Virus record (IMG/VR): IMGVR_UViG_3300022751_000019
Span: 1-56,130 of that record
Length of the DNA stretch: 56,130 nt
Source: a virus
Reading direction: 5' to 3' (one strand)
Below, one piece after another: positions 7,629-14,968 of this stretch. Position numbers and translations under genes: made by a program. The notes below the pieces were generated by a model. The model ran no database searches, had not been told where the DNA came from, and saw only the letters and a list, made by a program, of their open reading frames with translations. The stretch's first letter is position 1. The number at the start of each line of letters is the position of its first letter.

Positions 7629-7659
7629 TTGCAAACATACAAAACTTTTCTTAGATTTG
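7629..7659 (+). promoter_or_regulatory. promoter of accessory operon, TTG-N20-TAGATTTG
   Basis: TTG at 7629-7631 and TAGATTTG at 7652-7659 are separated by 20 bases, an exact consensus fit. It lies between the head genes and the 7754 operon and overlaps the upstream end of the leftward membrane-protein gene. Transcription should start near 7664-7666, just before the first hairpin of the leader. Confidence 0.8.
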
Positions 7660-7663
7660 TTTA

Positions 7664-7748
7664 TTAGTTCAATTGAAAAAGGTAGGATGTTTTCAATTGA
7701 GATATTCACCTTTTAAGTCCTACCAAATCCTACTGGTGGGACTTTTTT
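7664..7748 (+). ncRNA. two-hairpin leader / small RNA with complementary loops
   Basis: Hairpin 1: a perfect 11-bp stem (TCAATTGAAAA 7669-7679 with TTTTCAATTGA 7690-7700) around the loop AGGTAGGATG. Hairpin 2: an intrinsic terminator (7715-7725 with 7734-7744, loop AATCCTAC) followed by T6. GTAGGAT in loop 1 is exactly complementary to ATCCTAC in loop 2, a possible 7-bp kissing interaction. GGTAGGA can alternatively pair with TCCTACC in the 5' arm of the terminator and so melt it. The leader ends five bases before the next ATG, so it could be an attenuator or a short stand-alone RNA of about 85 nt. Confidence 0.7.
7715..7748 (+). terminator. intrinsic terminator immediately before the 7754 gene
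   Basis: An 11-bp stem with one G-T wobble, an 8-base loop and a run of six T. It is placed between a promoter and the first codon it should serve, the hallmark of attenuation rather than of an operon end. Confidence 0.8.
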
Positions 7749-7753
7749 AGTTT

Positions 7754-8251
7754 ATGGAAAGTAACGAACTTTATGATTCGGACTTTATCACTGACCACAT
7801 AAAAAGGTTTCAAGAAAAACAAGGGCATCCTGAAAACGCAAAGTCTTGTCGTTATTATATTGTAGACAATGTGTTATTCTTATACAAAGAAAGGGATAGA
7901 GACTATTTTACTGATTTGGTTATTGATGAAGTAGAAAAGACATTTCCTCACGCAAAGGTTGTAGAGATAGGTTTAAATGCTGATGATTACGCTCAAAATA
8001 GAAGAACTTTAATAGTTAGTGACGAATTTAAAGAGATTGGATCTTTAACTATTGATTTAAAGTTTGCTGTTGGTCTTTCTGATACGGTATATCGTTTAGT
8101 TGAAGAAAGAGAGTATTACGAAGGGATTCAAACTGAATACTTTAAACTTTGGCGTTCGTCTATTAGTGTGACGGATTTCTTTGCCAATCAAAGGTCAAAA
8201 GAGTTAAAATATAAATTAGCTTTATTAAAACTTCATCCAACAAAATTATGA
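7754..8251 (+). CDS. hypothetical protein, 165 aa
   Basis: Unknown cytoplasmic protein. Acidic and mixed in charge with an 'RDRDYFTDLVIDEVEKTFPHAKVVEIG' segment; no motif recognised. First gene of the accessory rightward operon, starting five bases after the leader terminator and overlapping the next gene by four bases. Confidence 0.75.
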   Translation: MESNELYDSDFITDHIKRFQEKQGHPENAKSCRYYIVDNVLFLYKERDRDYFTDLVIDEVEKTFPHAKVVEIGLNADDYAQNRRTLIVSDEFKEIGSLTIDLKFAVGLSDTVYRLVEEREYYEGIQTEYFKLWRSSISVTDFFANQRSKELKYKLALLKLHPTKL

Positions 8252-8778
8252 ATATATACCTATTTTTCTTTACTATAATAGTAGTGTTAAGCGTAATACT
8301 ACTATGCTTATGGCTTGTATTTCAACTCAAAACCTTTGCTGTTGATTTACAAACTCTTTACAGATATAGAGCATTAAAGCAAACCCAAAAGCACGAAAGG
8401 GATTTTGAAGATTACAAGATTCAAGTTGAATTAAAATTACGATTAATGAATTATGAAGAATCGAAAGCTATTTGTATTGGCAATCAACAAAATATATTGC
8501 AAATACCTGTTCATATTTATAAGCCTACTCGCTATAACCCTATGATGGAATACGAAAATATGGATATTAATTTGACAGTTCAAACAAGAAACAAACAAAC
8601 TTATAGAAAAACAATCTACAAACCACCATTTAGTATTTTGGAAAAAGAAATACCAGTAAAATACATCGAGTCTCTATTGGCTAAAGAAATGGCTAACTGG
8701 TTAATAGAAAACAAGTTTATTCAAGGTAAATACCAAGAAGATGAAAGGGCGATAGTTTTTTCTTTTAATTACTTTTAA
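8248..8778 (+). CDS. membrane-anchored hypothetical protein, 176 aa
   Basis: One N-terminal transmembrane helix (residues about 4-27, FFFTIIVVLSVILLCLWLVF) followed by a Lys/Arg-rich helical stretch and a mixed soluble domain. It is probably anchored in the inner membrane; which side the domain faces is not clear. Coupled to the upstream gene by ATGA. Confidence 0.75.
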   Translation: MNIYLFFFTIIVVLSVILLCLWLVFQLKTFAVDLQTLYRYRALKQTQKHERDFEDYKIQVELKLRLMNYEESKAICIGNQQNILQIPVHIYKPTRYNPMMEYENMDINLTVQTRNKQTYRKTIYKPPFSILEKEIPVKYIESLLAKEMANWLIENKFIQGKYQEDERAIVFSFNYF

Positions 8779-8789
8779 ATCTTAATCCT

Positions 8790-9134
8790 ATGAAAAACAT
8801 TAAAGAATGGAACGGCAGTATAATCAAAGAGACTAAGACTCATTACAAGGTATATAATAAGAACGGGTTTCAATTACTGTGTCTTAATGATGGAACCGTA
8901 ATTCCTATGCAAACAGAAAGCAAGGTGACCTCGCTTGTCAAAGGTGTTTCTACCTGTCAAATAACGGTATTTGTAAATATGACTGATTCAATACAGTTAA
9001 TTGATGGAGAATTGTTTTTGAGTGGTGAAAAGCTAATCGGGATAGATTCATTCATACATATCATAAGTGATAAAATTATCAACTCGGTAATATTTACCGT
9101 TGAATGTGAACTTATAAACTCTGTAATAAAATGA
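8790..9134 (+). CDS. hypothetical protein, 114 aa
   Basis: Unknown. Sequence alternates short hydrophobic runs and turns (KVYNKNGFQLLCLNDGTVIP, QITVFVNMTDSIQLI), suggesting a small all-beta protein. Overlaps the next gene by four bases within the accessory operon. Confidence 0.7.
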   Translation: MKNIKEWNGSIIKETKTHYKVYNKNGFQLLCLNDGTVIPMQTESKVTSLVKGVSTCQITVFVNMTDSIQLIDGELFLSGEKLIGIDSFIHIISDKIINSVIFTVECELINSVIK

Positions 9135-9454
9135 ACGCACTAGAATTATTAAACCAAGTCACAGAATACGCTAAAACATATCGTAATGATGCCATTGAAT
9201 CTATTCAAAGGAACAGGCATATGAACGAAATAGAAAAGGGTGAAGCTTTTAACCAGAGATATGTTGATGCTGTACTAGTAGACTTTATCAACTTTATAGG
9301 TGGTAGAAGCGGAATAGATTACGCCTTGTATGCAAGTGATTTAAAGCCTCCAGTTGAGAAAGCACCAAAAGAACCACTAACAGAAACGGATAGAGAATGG
9401 TTGTTACGACACATTGAGGAGAATAAAGAACATTATAGAAGAGTATTTAGCTAA
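9131..9454 (+). CDS. hypothetical protein, 107 aa
   Basis: Unknown helical protein. 'AIESIQRNRHMNEIEKGEAFNQRYVDAVLVDFINFIGG' resembles a short family seen in Bacteroidota phages with an 'LVDFINYVG...YALYTKDL' motif, as far as I recall. The C-terminus is acidic and helical. Confidence 0.75.
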   Translation: MNALELLNQVTEYAKTYRNDAIESIQRNRHMNEIEKGEAFNQRYVDAVLVDFINFIGGRSGIDYALYASDLKPPVEKAPKEPLTETDREWLLRHIEENKEHYRRVFS

Positions 9455-9462
9455 TTACCACA

Positions 9463-9861
9463 ATGATTAACATAAGCGAACTCCGTATAGGGAACCTCTA
9501 TCAATGGAGCGAATTAGCTTCTATGGGAAGAGGTACAGGTATTATCATGTCAGGTAAAGACATAGATATGTATTCTGAGTTTAAAAATCCTATCCCAATC
9601 ACGCGGCAATGGTTACTTGATTTAGGATTTGAAGAAATACATTTCCATGATATATCAATGCCAAGCATCCAACACTCATTATTTGGCGATACTAGAATTT
9701 CTTTTTGTGGCGTATCTGGCATGCCAAACAAACTTGCAGTCTTGGAATATTCTGATAAATTTTACAAAGGAAACTGTATTGCTGTTGTTGAATTTGTTCA
9801 TCAATTACAGAATCTTATCTACTTTCTTACAGGCAAAGAACTAGAATACAAGCCTATGTAG
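9463..9861 (+). CDS. Bacteroidota phage family with 'VHQLQNL' C-terminus, 132 aa
   Basis: Recognisable by layout though not by function: N-terminal 'SELRIGNLYQW', central 'PIPITRQWLLDLGFEE', C-terminal 'FVHQLQNLIYFLTGKELEY'. Proteins with this layout are common and variable in copy number in Bacteroidota phages and prophages. The end pattern may bind another phage component; nothing is proven. Confidence 0.8.
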   Translation: MINISELRIGNLYQWSELASMGRGTGIIMSGKDIDMYSEFKNPIPITRQWLLDLGFEEIHFHDISMPSIQHSLFGDTRISFCGVSGMPNKLAVLEYSDKFYKGNCIAVVEFVHQLQNLIYFLTGKELEYKPM

Positions 9862-9863
9862 CC

Positions 9864-9974
9864 ATGAAAACAAGAAGATTAAATAACCCTGACAAGCTTA
9901 TTTTAATTGCCTTATATCTTCTATTTTCATGGCTATTTTCTACTTTCGTAGAGTATCTTGTAAAGCTACTTTAG
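9864..9974 (+). CDS. small membrane protein, 36 aa
   Basis: Starts two bases after the preceding stop. A basic N-terminus (MKTRRLNNPDK) is followed by one hydrophobic helix (LILIALYLLFSWLFSTF). The 3' end overlaps the convergent leftward gene by 35 bases. Size and location suggest an accessory membrane peptide; translation is unproven. Confidence 0.5.
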   Translation: MKTRRLNNPDKLILIALYLLFSWLFSTFVEYLVKLL

Positions 9975-10152
9975 ATTGACCACAAAACGGACAGAATTTT
10001 AACCTGTGAAATCTAGGGCCGTAACCATCCATATTAGTAGTGTAGATAGTCCATTGTCCTGACATCTTATCTATTTCTCTGGTGACAACTAATTCTTTGA
10101 AGTCTTCGCAACAGGGAGGCTCTGGGTAGTCGTAGGTATTAGGTTTGTTCAT
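9940..10152 (-). CDS. small protein with partial zinc-ribbon, 70 aa
   Basis: Contains 'PPCCEDF' near the N-terminus and 'KFCPFCGQS' near the C-terminus, so one or two Cys pairs could bind zinc. Proteins with this 'RLKFCPFCG' ending are frequent in phages and usually of unknown function. Overlaps the neighbouring leftward gene by 14 bases. Confidence 0.75.
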   Translation of the reverse strand: MNKPNTYDYPEPPCCEDFKELVVTREIDKMSGQWTIYTTNMDGYGPRFHRLKFCPFCGQSKVALQDTLRK

Positions 10153-10366: not shown

Positions 10367-10875
10367 AATTTCACATCGTTTATATTTTCTAATTGATAAT
10401 CTTCAAAAGTGTTATATCCTCCACAATGAGGGCATACTTTGTCATAATAATAATCATACCCTAAATCAACTTCTTTTTCCTCTATCTCGTTAAAAGGTGT
10501 TGATTTTCCGCAATCCTCACATTTTAGTTTAGTGTTTTCATATTCGTATAAGTATTTAGAAGCTATTCCTATACTTCTGGCATCTATATTTTCACGACTA
10601 ATTTGTATAGACAGTCCTGCATAGTTTCTTGCATCTATTATAAAATCCTCATTCAAAACATTGCCACTTATTTTTACGTCTCCTTTAGCAGAATCACAAG
10701 CCTCCATACTTATAGCTGAAAATCTTTTATCTGAGCCTTTAAACAACTCAACAGCATTATGAATGTCAGTATAGAAAGAGACATAGATTTGTTTTGCACC
10801 TTGAAGAGAGTGTATTATGTTTCCATATTCTGGGTTCTCTCTAATCGTTCTTCTGTCTATTAGGATTGTTTTCAT
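10363..10875 (-). CDS. hypothetical protein with C-terminal zinc ribbon, 170 aa
   Basis: The C-terminal part shows 'LKCEDCGKS' and 'KVCPHCGGY' separated by about 27 residues, a CxxC...CxxC zinc ribbon. The N-terminal about 110 residues are unassigned, with 'IRENPEYGNIIHSLQGAKQIYV' at the start. It may bind nucleic acid or protein. Its stop overlaps the next leftward start. Confidence 0.75.
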   Translation of the reverse strand: MKTILIDRRTIRENPEYGNIIHSLQGAKQIYVSFYTDIHNAVELFKGSDKRFSAISMEACDSAKGDVKISGNVLNEDFIIDARNYAGLSIQISRENIDARSIGIASKYLYEYENTKLKCEDCGKSTPFNEIEEKEVDLGYDYYYDKVCPHCGGYNTFEDYQLENINDVKL

Positions 10876-12111: not shown

Positions 12112-13389
12112 ATGGAACAATTAACAATAGCTGACGCCCAGAGTTTAATAGAAAAAGGAATGTCAATCCATAAAGAAAGGGTTGATACGATTAACAGAGA
12201 CCTTGATACACTACAAAAACAGCTCGAAAAAGCAGAAGAGACCATTAAAAATAACGGCTCAGTTGACCCTACCTTGATTACACAAATCAAGAATTTCATG
12301 GAGCAGTCTCAGGAGAGACACGAAAAACTAGCCAAACAACAAGATGCTACAGAGCTTATGTTGAAAGGTGGTCGTTTTACAGGCTTAAATCAAAAATCTG
12401 CCGAACAAAGATTTATTGAAGAGTTATCAAAAGACACTGATTATATTCAACAATTGAGAATCAAGTCTTTAAACTCAAAGAGTTTTAATTTAGGTTTCGG
12501 ACAAGAGTTTATTCAGTCAAAATCAGTAGCTAATGTAACACTAGGGAATGTGACTGGTGTTTTACCTGCCGAATATAACAATACCATTGTGCATGCTCCA
12601 GAAAGAGAAATGCACATGCGTAATATTATACGCCAATCGCCATTAACTGGTGCAACGTATTCTTATCCTGTTTATACTTTAAAAGAAGGTGCGGCAGGTA
12701 TTCAAACAGAAGGAAGTGCTAAAGCAACTGCTGATTTTAATATCGTATTCAAAAACGAAGTACCTGTTGTTATTGCAGTAACAGAAACCTTGTCAGAACA
12801 AATATTAGATGATATTCCAGGGCTTCTTTCTTTCATTTCTAACAGAATGATTGAGTTGTTGCTTTTGAAAGAAGATGATGAGATTCTAAACGGGGCAGGT
12901 GGTTCAAATCGCTTGAATGGTATTATCACACAAGCAACTGCATTTGTGCCAACTGGTACAGCTAATACAGCCAATGCAGATAGATTTGCTTACTTGTTTA
13001 GTGCTATCTCTCAACTTTTACAGTTGAATCGTAAAATCAATGGTATTGTTTTAAATCCTTACGGATACTTTGAGTTATTGCAAGTTAAAACTACTCAAAA
13101 AGAGTATACCTCACCGTATGCTGCCGTAACATGGATTAATAACACTTTACGTTTAGCTGGTATTCCAATTTACATGACAACTGCTTTAGGAGCTAATAAC
13201 TTCTTGGTGGGTGACTGGAATCAAGCCGAATTGAAAATGAAGAACGATATTAACGTAGCCATTTCTAACGAACACGGTACTAATTTTACTCAAAACTTAG
13301 TAACGATTCGTGTGGAAGAAAGACTTGGTTTAGCTGTATATCAGCCTGCATCATTTGTCTATGGGTCATGGACAGCATTATCGTCATAA
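12112..13389 (+). CDS. major capsid protein, HK97 fold
   Basis: Main shell protein. The first about 100 residues are a charged, coiled-coil delta domain (RDLDTLQKQLEKAEETIKNN), expected to be removed by the protease next door. The HK97-fold core begins near 'GLNQKSAEQRF' and includes 'VLPAEYNNTIVHAPERE', 'VTETLSEQILDDIPGLLSF', 'EDDEILNGAGGSNRLNGII' and 'VGDWNQAELKMKNDI'. At 425 aa the size is typical. A strong hairpin lies ten bases past the stop codon, inside the next gene. Confidence 0.95.
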   Translation: MEQLTIADAQSLIEKGMSIHKERVDTINRDLDTLQKQLEKAEETIKNNGSVDPTLITQIKNFMEQSQERHEKLAKQQDATELMLKGGRFTGLNQKSAEQRFIEELSKDTDYIQQLRIKSLNSKSFNLGFGQEFIQSKSVANVTLGNVTGVLPAEYNNTIVHAPEREMHMRNIIRQSPLTGATYSYPVYTLKEGAAGIQTEGSAKATADFNIVFKNEVPVVIAVTETLSEQILDDIPGLLSFISNRMIELLLLKEDDEILNGAGGSNRLNGIITQATAFVPTGTANTANADRFAYLFSAISQLLQLNRKINGIVLNPYGYFELLQVKTTQKEYTSPYAAVTWINNTLRLAGIPIYMTTALGANNFLVGDWNQAELKMKNDINVAISNEHGTNFTQNLVTIRVEERLGLAVYQPASFVYGSWTALSS

Positions 13390-14009
13390 AAAATAAGGAA
13401 ACGAAGGAGGCTGTTATTCCTCCTTCGTTTATCCAAAAAACAATCGTTCTTAATTTAGATGAGAGATTAGATAGATTAGGCGATGTATCAAGAGAATTGA
13501 GTAATTTAGGAATTGAGTTTGAAAGGTTTTCAGCTATTAAACACGACATAGGATGGACAGGATATAATCAATCAATCCTTAAAATCTTAGAAGAGAATCA
13601 AGAAGTTGAGAATTTATTTTTAGTTGAGGACGATTGCAAATTTATTAGTGATTTATCTCATATTAAAAAGGCGATAAAAGAACTACCAAATGATTTTGAT
13701 GCTTTATGGTTAGGGTCTAACCTTCAAGCGGTTCATACAAGAAAATATAGTTCACATTTGTATGAATTAGAAAACGGATGGAACACCCACGCTATTGTAA
13801 CGACAAAGAAATTCAGGGACTGGTGTTTAGAGTATTGGGACAAAGAAATAGTATTCGATGAGTTTCTAAGGATAACAGCCCAGCCATTAAAGAAATGTTT
13901 CGTAGTATATCCAATGGTAGCGATTCAAAAAGCGTCCTTTTCAAATATAATCAATGGGTTTGCCGACTATGAGGAAGTATTTAGACAGGCACAAAATAAA
14001 TTTGCATGA
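13368..14009 (+). CDS. glycosyltransferase, GT25-like
   Basis: Likely transfers a sugar to a protein or glycan. 'IQKTIVLNLDERLDRLGDVSRELSNLGIEFERFSAI' matches the opening of LPS/collagen-type GT25 enzymes, and 'ENLFLVEDDCKF' supplies the acidic 'EDD' motif expected for nucleotide-sugar and metal binding. 'WNTHAIVTTKKF' lies in the second half. It overlaps the capsid gene by 22 bases; no later ATG would keep the motif, so this start is retained. Position in the late operon suggests modification of virion proteins, but host glycans are equally possible. Confidence 0.75.
   Translation: MDSIIVIKNKETKEAVIPPSFIQKTIVLNLDERLDRLGDVSRELSNLGIEFERFSAIKHDIGWTGYNQSILKILEENQEVENLFLVEDDCKFISDLSHIKKAIKELPNDFDALWLGSNLQAVHTRKYSSHLYELENGWNTHAIVTTKKFRDWCLEYWDKEIVFDEFLRITAQPLKKCFVVYPMVAIQKASFSNIINGFADYEEVFRQAQNKFA
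13399..13430 (+). promoter_or_regulatory. strong hairpin just after the capsid gene (possible attenuator)
   Basis: Perfect 12-bp stem (AAACGAAGGAGG / CCTCCTTCGTTT) with an 8-base loop. It sits immediately behind the capsid stop codon and within the first 21 codons of the glycosyltransferase gene. There is no strong T-run after it. It could protect the capsid mRNA 3' end or partly terminate transcription, lowering expression of the next gene. Confidence 0.6.
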
Positions 14010-14968
14010 ATATTTTATTTCATCTTCACGCCTACCCCAATGAAGTTTTAGCAGGAGCCGAGACAATGGCTCATAGAATAGCAAAGTATTTACAAAGCGT
14101 AGGACACAGTGTTAAGGTCTACTCGCAGACGGCAAAAGAGCCAAGAAAGTTCGTTGATAATATAGAGGTGTTAAGATTTGAATCTGGTACAGATGATTCC
14201 GAGAATTGGAAATGGGCGGATTTAGTATTTACTCATTTAGGAGCAACTTATTATTGCTTAAATAAATCAAGATGGTATTCTAAGAAACTGGTTCACCTGA
14301 TACATAATAGCTTTGGCGACCATCTGGTAAGTGTAAGAGTAAAGAATAATTTCTTAGTATACAATTCCGAATATGTCAAAAGGGTTTTAAAATACGAGCA
14401 TCCAAGTTGTATTTGTATTCCTCCAGTAGACTATAGAGAATACCAGAACGTTAAACCTAAAGGCAATTATATTACCCTTGTAAATTTGAATGAAAATAAA
14501 GGAGGGCAGATATTAATTGAACTAGCTAAAAGATTGCCTCAATACCAGTTTTTAGGTGTTACAGGCGGTTATTATGACCAGATTAAGGAAAAGCTACCTA
14601 ATCTGAAATACATCGAGCCACAAAGCAATATAAAGGTAGCTTATGAACAGTCTAAGATTGTAATAATGCCATCAGAATATGAATCTTACGGGCAGGTGGC
14701 TATTGAAGCGATTAGTTGCGGTATTCCAGTAATCAGTTCTAAAGCACAGGGATTAGTTGAAGCTTTGTCTTATGCAGGCACACCGATTGATAGAACCGAT
14801 TTAAACGCATGGTGTGAGGCAATAATTAAATTAATGAGTGATAATGAGTATTACAAAAGAAAGTCCTTAGAATCGCTTAAAAGAGCCAAAGAACTTGACC
14901 CTTTAAATTATTTGAACGGATTAAATGATTTTCTTACACAAATATATAAAATATCATGGCAAGAGTAA
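14006..14968 (+). CDS. glycosyltransferase family 4 (GT-B fold)
   Basis: Retaining glycosyltransferase of the GT4 type. The N-terminal domain opens with 'NILFHLHAYPNEVLAGAETMAHRIAKYL' (the Gly-rich acceptor side). The C-terminal domain carries 'MPSEYESYGQVAIEAISCGIPVISS', the E-x7-E nucleotide-sugar motif. At 320 aa it is compact but complete. Coupled to the GT25-like gene by ATGA overlap, so the two act together. The sugar donor and acceptor cannot be read from the sequence. Confidence 0.88.
   Translation: MNILFHLHAYPNEVLAGAETMAHRIAKYLQSVGHSVKVYSQTAKEPRKFVDNIEVLRFESGTDDSENWKWADLVFTHLGATYYCLNKSRWYSKKLVHLIHNSFGDHLVSVRVKNNFLVYNSEYVKRVLKYEHPSCICIPPVDYREYQNVKPKGNYITLVNLNENKGGQILIELAKRLPQYQFLGVTGGYYDQIKEKLPNLKYIEPQSNIKVAYEQSKIVIMPSEYESYGQVAIEAISCGIPVISSKAQGLVEALSYAGTPIDRTDLNAWCEAIIKLMSDNEYYKRKSLESLKRAKELDPLNYLNGLNDFLTQIYKISWQE

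Follow-up and report, generated by a model that had tools for sequence, protein, structure and literature searches.

A putative kissing-loop terminator leader upstream of accessory genes in phages of Bacteroidetes-type bacteria

Kissing-hairpin regulators and the phage locus

The closest described relative of the element reported here, in terms of design, is the guanidine-IV riboswitch (GGAM-1 or mepA motif), in which two hairpins are joined by a loop-loop pseudoknot and the 3' hairpin is a Rho-independent terminator (PMC9788692). This arrangement is a proven transcriptional ON-switch (PMC7736828, PMC9788692, PMC11611296), and its kissing loop has been proposed to stretch or compete with the terminator and to promote read-through (PMC7736828, PMC11611296). 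Transcription control by an upstream hairpin that kisses the loop of the terminator itself is rare and was recognised only recently; it is reported for guanidine-IV riboswitches. Other RNAs share part of this logic. In the cobalamin riboswitch, an upstream hairpin loop docks on the loop of an expression-platform hairpin through the L5-L13 kissing interaction (PMC10907184); in pT181-type antisense attenuators, kissing hairpins control an intrinsic terminator located in a leader (PMC4878617); and ROOL and GOLLD are phage-encoded non-coding RNAs built on kissing loops, often found near tRNA genes (PMC12286853).

We analyzed a viral contig of 56,130 bases (IMGVR_UViG_3300022751_000019; the whole stretch is referred to below as the window), which encodes a terminase, a portal protein, a Mu-F-like head protein and an S78 prohead protease. 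The host of this virus is a Bacteroidetes-type bacterium. A first-pass annotation of the sequence had described a consensus promoter, a hairpin and a terminator with complementary loops ahead of an accessory operon. The promoter (7629..7659, plus strand) is of the Bacteroidetes sigma-ABfr type: it combines TTG at 7629-7631, a 20-nt spacer and TAGATTTG at 7652-7659, in agreement with the -33/-7 consensus TTTG/TAnnTTTG and its spacing of about 19-20 nt (PMC6847099). The -7 box deviates from the usual pattern by a G at its third position, which is almost absent from F. johnsoniae promoters and disfavoured in the refined consensus (PMC6847099). Placing the start according to the same consensus (G-5) predicts that transcription initiates around position 7664.

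Hairpin 1 (7668..7701, plus strand) has 12 pairs, 11 of them Watson-Crick as annotated and the last a terminal G-U, closing a 10-nt loop, AGGTAGGATG, at 7680-7689. Its kissing core, GTAGGAT (7682-7688), occupies loop positions 3-9. A 13-nt linker (7702..7714) leads to hairpin 2 (7715..7748, plus strand), an intrinsic terminator with an 11-pair stem (7715-7744) and a U-tract extending to 7748. The last seven bases of its loop, AATCCTAC (7726-7733), form the second core, ATCCTAC (7727-7733), which pairs with the first at all seven positions, again as annotated. The ATG at 7754 lies nine bases past the end of the terminator stem and, as first noted, five past the end of the U-tract. By a geometry estimate, the linker barely suffices to bridge the two stems and the 7-bp kiss when these are stacked coaxially.

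Such a coincidence of features is rare. Random 10-nt and 8-nt loops of the same composition share at least seven complementary bases with P = 0.00075. The full arrangement of two stems, terminator tail and complementary loops occurs once in the window, and only once in 22.5 Mb of dinucleotide-shuffled window (400 shuffles, both strands) when both stems must have at least nine pairs, the kiss at least seven and the terminator a tail.

Energy-based folding, when pseudoknots are disallowed, prefers other structures: an alternative hairpin 1 in the window and in one relative, L004, and a long loop-to-loop helix in another, L127. In the window, the alternative hairpin (7677-7714), which would hide the loop, is favored at -12.2 against about -9 kcal/mol; these energies omit the kiss, whose isolated 7-bp duplex amounts to -7.8. 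This hairpin can form in the window and L004 only and is absent from L010 and L127, and we discarded it as a shared structure. The alternative folds are thus not common to all members of the family, whereas the kiss is.

The phage element has the guanidine-IV layout of two kissing hairpins, the 3' one being a terminator, and it resembles guanidine-IV and Gd4v RNAs in its size class (about 90-100 nt), its position upstream of ORFs and a kiss that would compete with terminator completion (PMC7736828, PMC9788692, PMC11611296). The kissing-hairpin/terminator design is therefore already known from these two systems. The differences are nonetheless substantial: guanidine-IV loops are near-invariant, while those of the phage elements covary at three of seven kissing positions; the phage genes downstream are not sugE/EmrE/MATE-type exporters or transaminases; and the element is phage-borne, with one member, L004, lacking any gene behind it. 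No sugE/EmrE/MATE-type domain is encoded in the window operon, nor behind L010 (an HTH_36 protein), L127 (no confident Pfam domain) or L004 (nothing). Because this gene context is missing, we do not claim guanidine-IV membership. Rfam returned no match at gathering score for the elements of the window, L004 and L010, nor any match naming guanidine-IV at E<=10, although Rfam 15 may lack this class; a known Rfam family was rejected on these grounds. Unlike the cobalamin riboswitch, the phage element has no obvious ligand-binding core and its platform is a terminator, not a ribosome-binding-site hairpin. Where pT181 relies on a separate antisense RNA and strand exchange, both loops are carried here by one transcript. 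ROOL and GOLLD, for their part, are hundreds of nucleotides long with elaborate folds, and show no sequence match to the phage element.

Conservation and covariation in four phage elements

We know of four members: that of the window and three relatives, L004, L010 and L127. L004, reached through portal relatives, is 87% identical to the window element over 87 nt, above the 52-65% DNA identity of the flanking genes. Its hairpin 1 bears a compensatory A-T/T-A swap and its terminator stem is rewritten with compensation, while both loops are unchanged. L010 was found by a loop-pattern scan of viral contigs, in a phage sharing almost no proteins with the window; its stems are completely changed and unrelated to those of the window, yet its loops are identical. 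L127 was retrieved by an unbiased scan for any complementary loop pair in portal relatives (327 kb). It again combines 12 pairs with a 10-nt loop, AGGTCGTAGC, and its terminator loop contains CTACGAC: both loops have changed together and still match (GTCGTAG/CTACGAC). The L127 element occupies the same genome position as that of the window, just after the Mu-F-like head gene. The loop 1 consensus across members, AGGUnGnAnn, suggests that L127 is homologous and not independent in origin; this homology is plausible from the architecture and six shared loop bases.

The -7 box is retained in all three relatives (TATATTTG in L004, TAATTTTG in L010 and TACCTTTG in L127). The L010 promoter, TTTG-N19-TAATTTTG, fits the sigma-ABfr pattern as that of the window does, and L127 has TTTG-N17-TACCTTTG; a clear -33 element was not found in L004. 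In L127, a tRNA-Met-like gene with a CAT anticodon (L127:7485-7565) stands between the promoter and the kissing element. It is 80-85% identical to annotated phage tRNA-Met genes and was missed by ARAGORN, its acceptor stem apparently having a one-base bulge.

As MAFFT misaligned L010 and L127, pairs were counted in a fixed register over the four members. Hairpin 1 is paired in 46 of 48 cells, with two-sided changes at 9 of its 12 pairs. For the terminator, with one bulged T of L004 left out, 42 of 44 cells are paired and 8 of 11 pairs show two-sided changes, which brings the covarying stem pairs to 17 in total. The kiss is paired in all 28 cells; its seven pairs are all kept and three show two-sided compensatory change. 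The annotation had staked its claim on related phages keeping the loop complementarity: it is kept in four of four members and covaries in L127. That these pairs form in all four members and covary argues that loop-loop kissing is very likely real and under selection. A second pairing suggested by the annotation, between GGTAGGA and the 5' arm of the terminator (TCCTACC), is present in the window and is not kept in relatives. It is missing in L004 and L010, and we therefore rejected strand exchange between loop 1 and this arm.

These comparisons also bear on two simpler explanations. Located immediately past a promoter and forming a long perfect palindrome, hairpin 1 could be a DNA operator followed by an ordinary terminator, the loop match being accidental. 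Here the palindrome sequence is not conserved (it is unrelated in L010) while the loop is kept, the loop-loop pairing covaries, and chance would produce the arrangement about once per 22 Mb; we rejected the operator, which we regard as very improbable, on account of the unconserved stem. Ribosome-mediated attenuation could be exerted by a mini-ORF starting at the ATG of loop 1 (7687-7716, MFSIEIFTF); in the window, its stop codon shares sequence with the first pair of the terminator. The corresponding L004 and L010 peptides differ in length and are not related, loop 1 of L127 has no ATG, and Bacteroidetes ribosomes are independent of Shine-Dalgarno pairing (PMC6847099). A leader peptide was dismissed on the basis of the L127 loop and appears scarcely credible.

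Downstream genes and possible modes of action

In the window, the element precedes an accessory operon of five plus-strand ORFs (7754..9861: 7754-8251, 8248-8778, 8790-9134, 9131-9454 and 9463-9861). Their products are mostly without relatives; only the last (9463-9861) clearly matches a PHROG, phrog_10066, of unknown function. A distant relative of this protein (27% identity, E 2e-6) is encoded at L117:13521-13910, in the otherwise unrelated phage that carries L010. A same-strand gene directly follows the element in the window, L010 and L127, its ATG lying 9, 12 and 16 nt past the terminator stem, respectively. In these three cases no TAnnTTTG box was seen between stem and ATG, so that the downstream genes are apparently readable only through the terminator. 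The proteins concerned are unrelated: those of the window are orphans, that of L010 belongs to HTH_36, and that of L127 has no confident Pfam domain. As each phage has different genes in this position, no common regulated function emerges. In L004 the terminator is not followed by any plus-strand gene: one precedes the element, and the next genes are on the minus strand. Gene order is the same in the window and L127, with the head gene, the element, plus-strand accessory genes, minus-strand accessory genes and the protease.

A small zinc-ribbon-like gene lies on the minus strand of the window at 9940-10152; in L004 its homolog (10394-10591) has plus-strand orientation and immediately precedes the element. 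This difference in strand and place indicates that rearrangements of the accessory cassette have taken place around the element.

We favor, with about even confidence, a cis-acting phage leader whose kiss sets terminator read-through into the accessory operon. The signals it would use, namely promoter and terminator signatures, both stems and the loop-loop pairing, are all legible in the DNA. Transcription would begin a few bases 5' of hairpin 1, whose loop would then form seven base pairs with that of the terminator hairpin behind it, a step that covariation supports. As RNA polymerase completes the terminator, the kiss may compete with closure of the outer terminator pairs, since the 13-14-nt linker of the window and L004 barely spans the rigid stack (a reach of about 84-90 A for a coaxial stack of about 84 A, by geometry estimate); kiss and complete terminator should thus strain each other in these two members. 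Pairing targets the terminator loop, not its stem, and therefore could coexist with a partly formed terminator. We infer that the kiss lowers termination and would in this way determine what share of polymerases continues past the terminator to feed the operon. Regulation may come from a ligand, a protein, a ribosome or a trans RNA tipping this balance, or from nothing, the ratio then being fixed. This reading is preferred because the same mechanism has been proposed for guanidine-IV riboswitches. Against it, the linkers of L010 (30 nt) and L127 (23 nt) are relaxed, and kiss and full terminator can coexist there. The dissimilar downstream genes, the other hairpins preferred when pseudoknots are disallowed and the small size of the family, with only four members, also count against it.

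The absence of a gene behind L004 makes a free-standing small RNA the main rival, somewhat less probable in our view. Such an RNA would measure about 85 nt, or about 100 in L010, have a promoter and a terminator to itself, and work in trans or by binding a protein; the intramolecular kiss would provide a compact, nuclease-resistant fold, and the downstream gene would be read only by leakage. The L004 unit is complete, yet nothing lies on its strand behind it, and the genes following the element share nothing among phages. Moreover, the AGGTAGGATG/AATCCTAC loops are identical in unrelated phages with different stems, an identity exceeding the need for mutual complementarity, as if a third partner read the loops. 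On the other hand, the loops are changed in L127, no complementary loop target stood out elsewhere in the three phage genomes searched, and in three of four members an ATG stands a few bases past the U-tract (9-16 nt from the stem) with no promoter between, which suits a switch.

Kissing loops also join phi29 pRNA, and the phage-associated ROOL and GOLLD RNAs, into dimers or rings, and two RNAs could likewise be linked here through loop 1 of one and the terminator loop of the other. The loops are complementary to each other, a dimer would relieve the steric tightness of the intramolecular kiss in the window and L004, and the elements of the window and L127 are located among head genes. GOLLD env-38 lies downstream of a Met-tRNA (PMC12286853), as the L127 element does. 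We consider such an intermolecular device improbable: the L010 and L127 linkers easily permit an intramolecular kiss, ROOL and GOLLD are much larger RNAs, and in G004, which shares almost no proteins with the window, the element adjoins a replication-type gene, not head genes.

More speculatively, and with rather low confidence, the elements may form an undescribed phage riboswitch-like class, a bare kissing hairpin pair that senses an infection signal and admits transcription into accessory cassettes. If so, the bare pair would reduce the guanidine-IV design to its minimum, and different phages would use loop pairs that are orthogonal to one another. A phage family with guanidine-IV geometry, orthogonal loop pairs, linkers of 13-30 nt and no obvious ligand core would make it possible to ask directly whether kissing is enough to control termination. 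Furthermore, kissing elements are potential small exchangeable parts for Bacteroidetes, in which RNA regulation is little explored.

Wider searches and additional observations

Megablast and tblastn searches of phages with the region and the first ORF gave no result, nor did a viral-contig search with the first ORF or distant blastn of the elements against phages and plasmids. The exact loop pattern matched 27 times in 84,980 bacterial and archaeal genomes, never with the structure, and a looser pattern matched once, by chance, in 395 genomes from the same class as an Altibacter genome. Among matches to transition-degenerate loops in viral contigs, only L004 and L010 were real on inspection. 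Phage 11b and Cellulophaga phi10:1, scanned for kissing loops, gave weak matches only. A scan of 0.91 Mb of viral and bacterial DNA retrieved the members of the kissing family, one 6-base match, and L051 and L052, two pattern-selected loci of another kind; nothing else was found.

In these last two loci, from another phage pair (L051:5396-5459 and L052:1876-1941), a terminator loop, TATCCTACCTAA, is complementary to an upstream TTAGGTAAGGTAGGATA, and the terminators stand just ahead of a Shine-Dalgarno-like site and an ATG. They are possibly a separate terminator-loop control element. Elsewhere in the window, two candidate glycosyltransferase genes, judged by sequence, lie between the capsid and head-tail genes (13368-14968), with relatives at 61-68% identity. 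A strong 12-pair terminator-like hairpin is found on the minus strand at 13399-13430, in the opening part of the plus-strand gene that follows the capsid gene.
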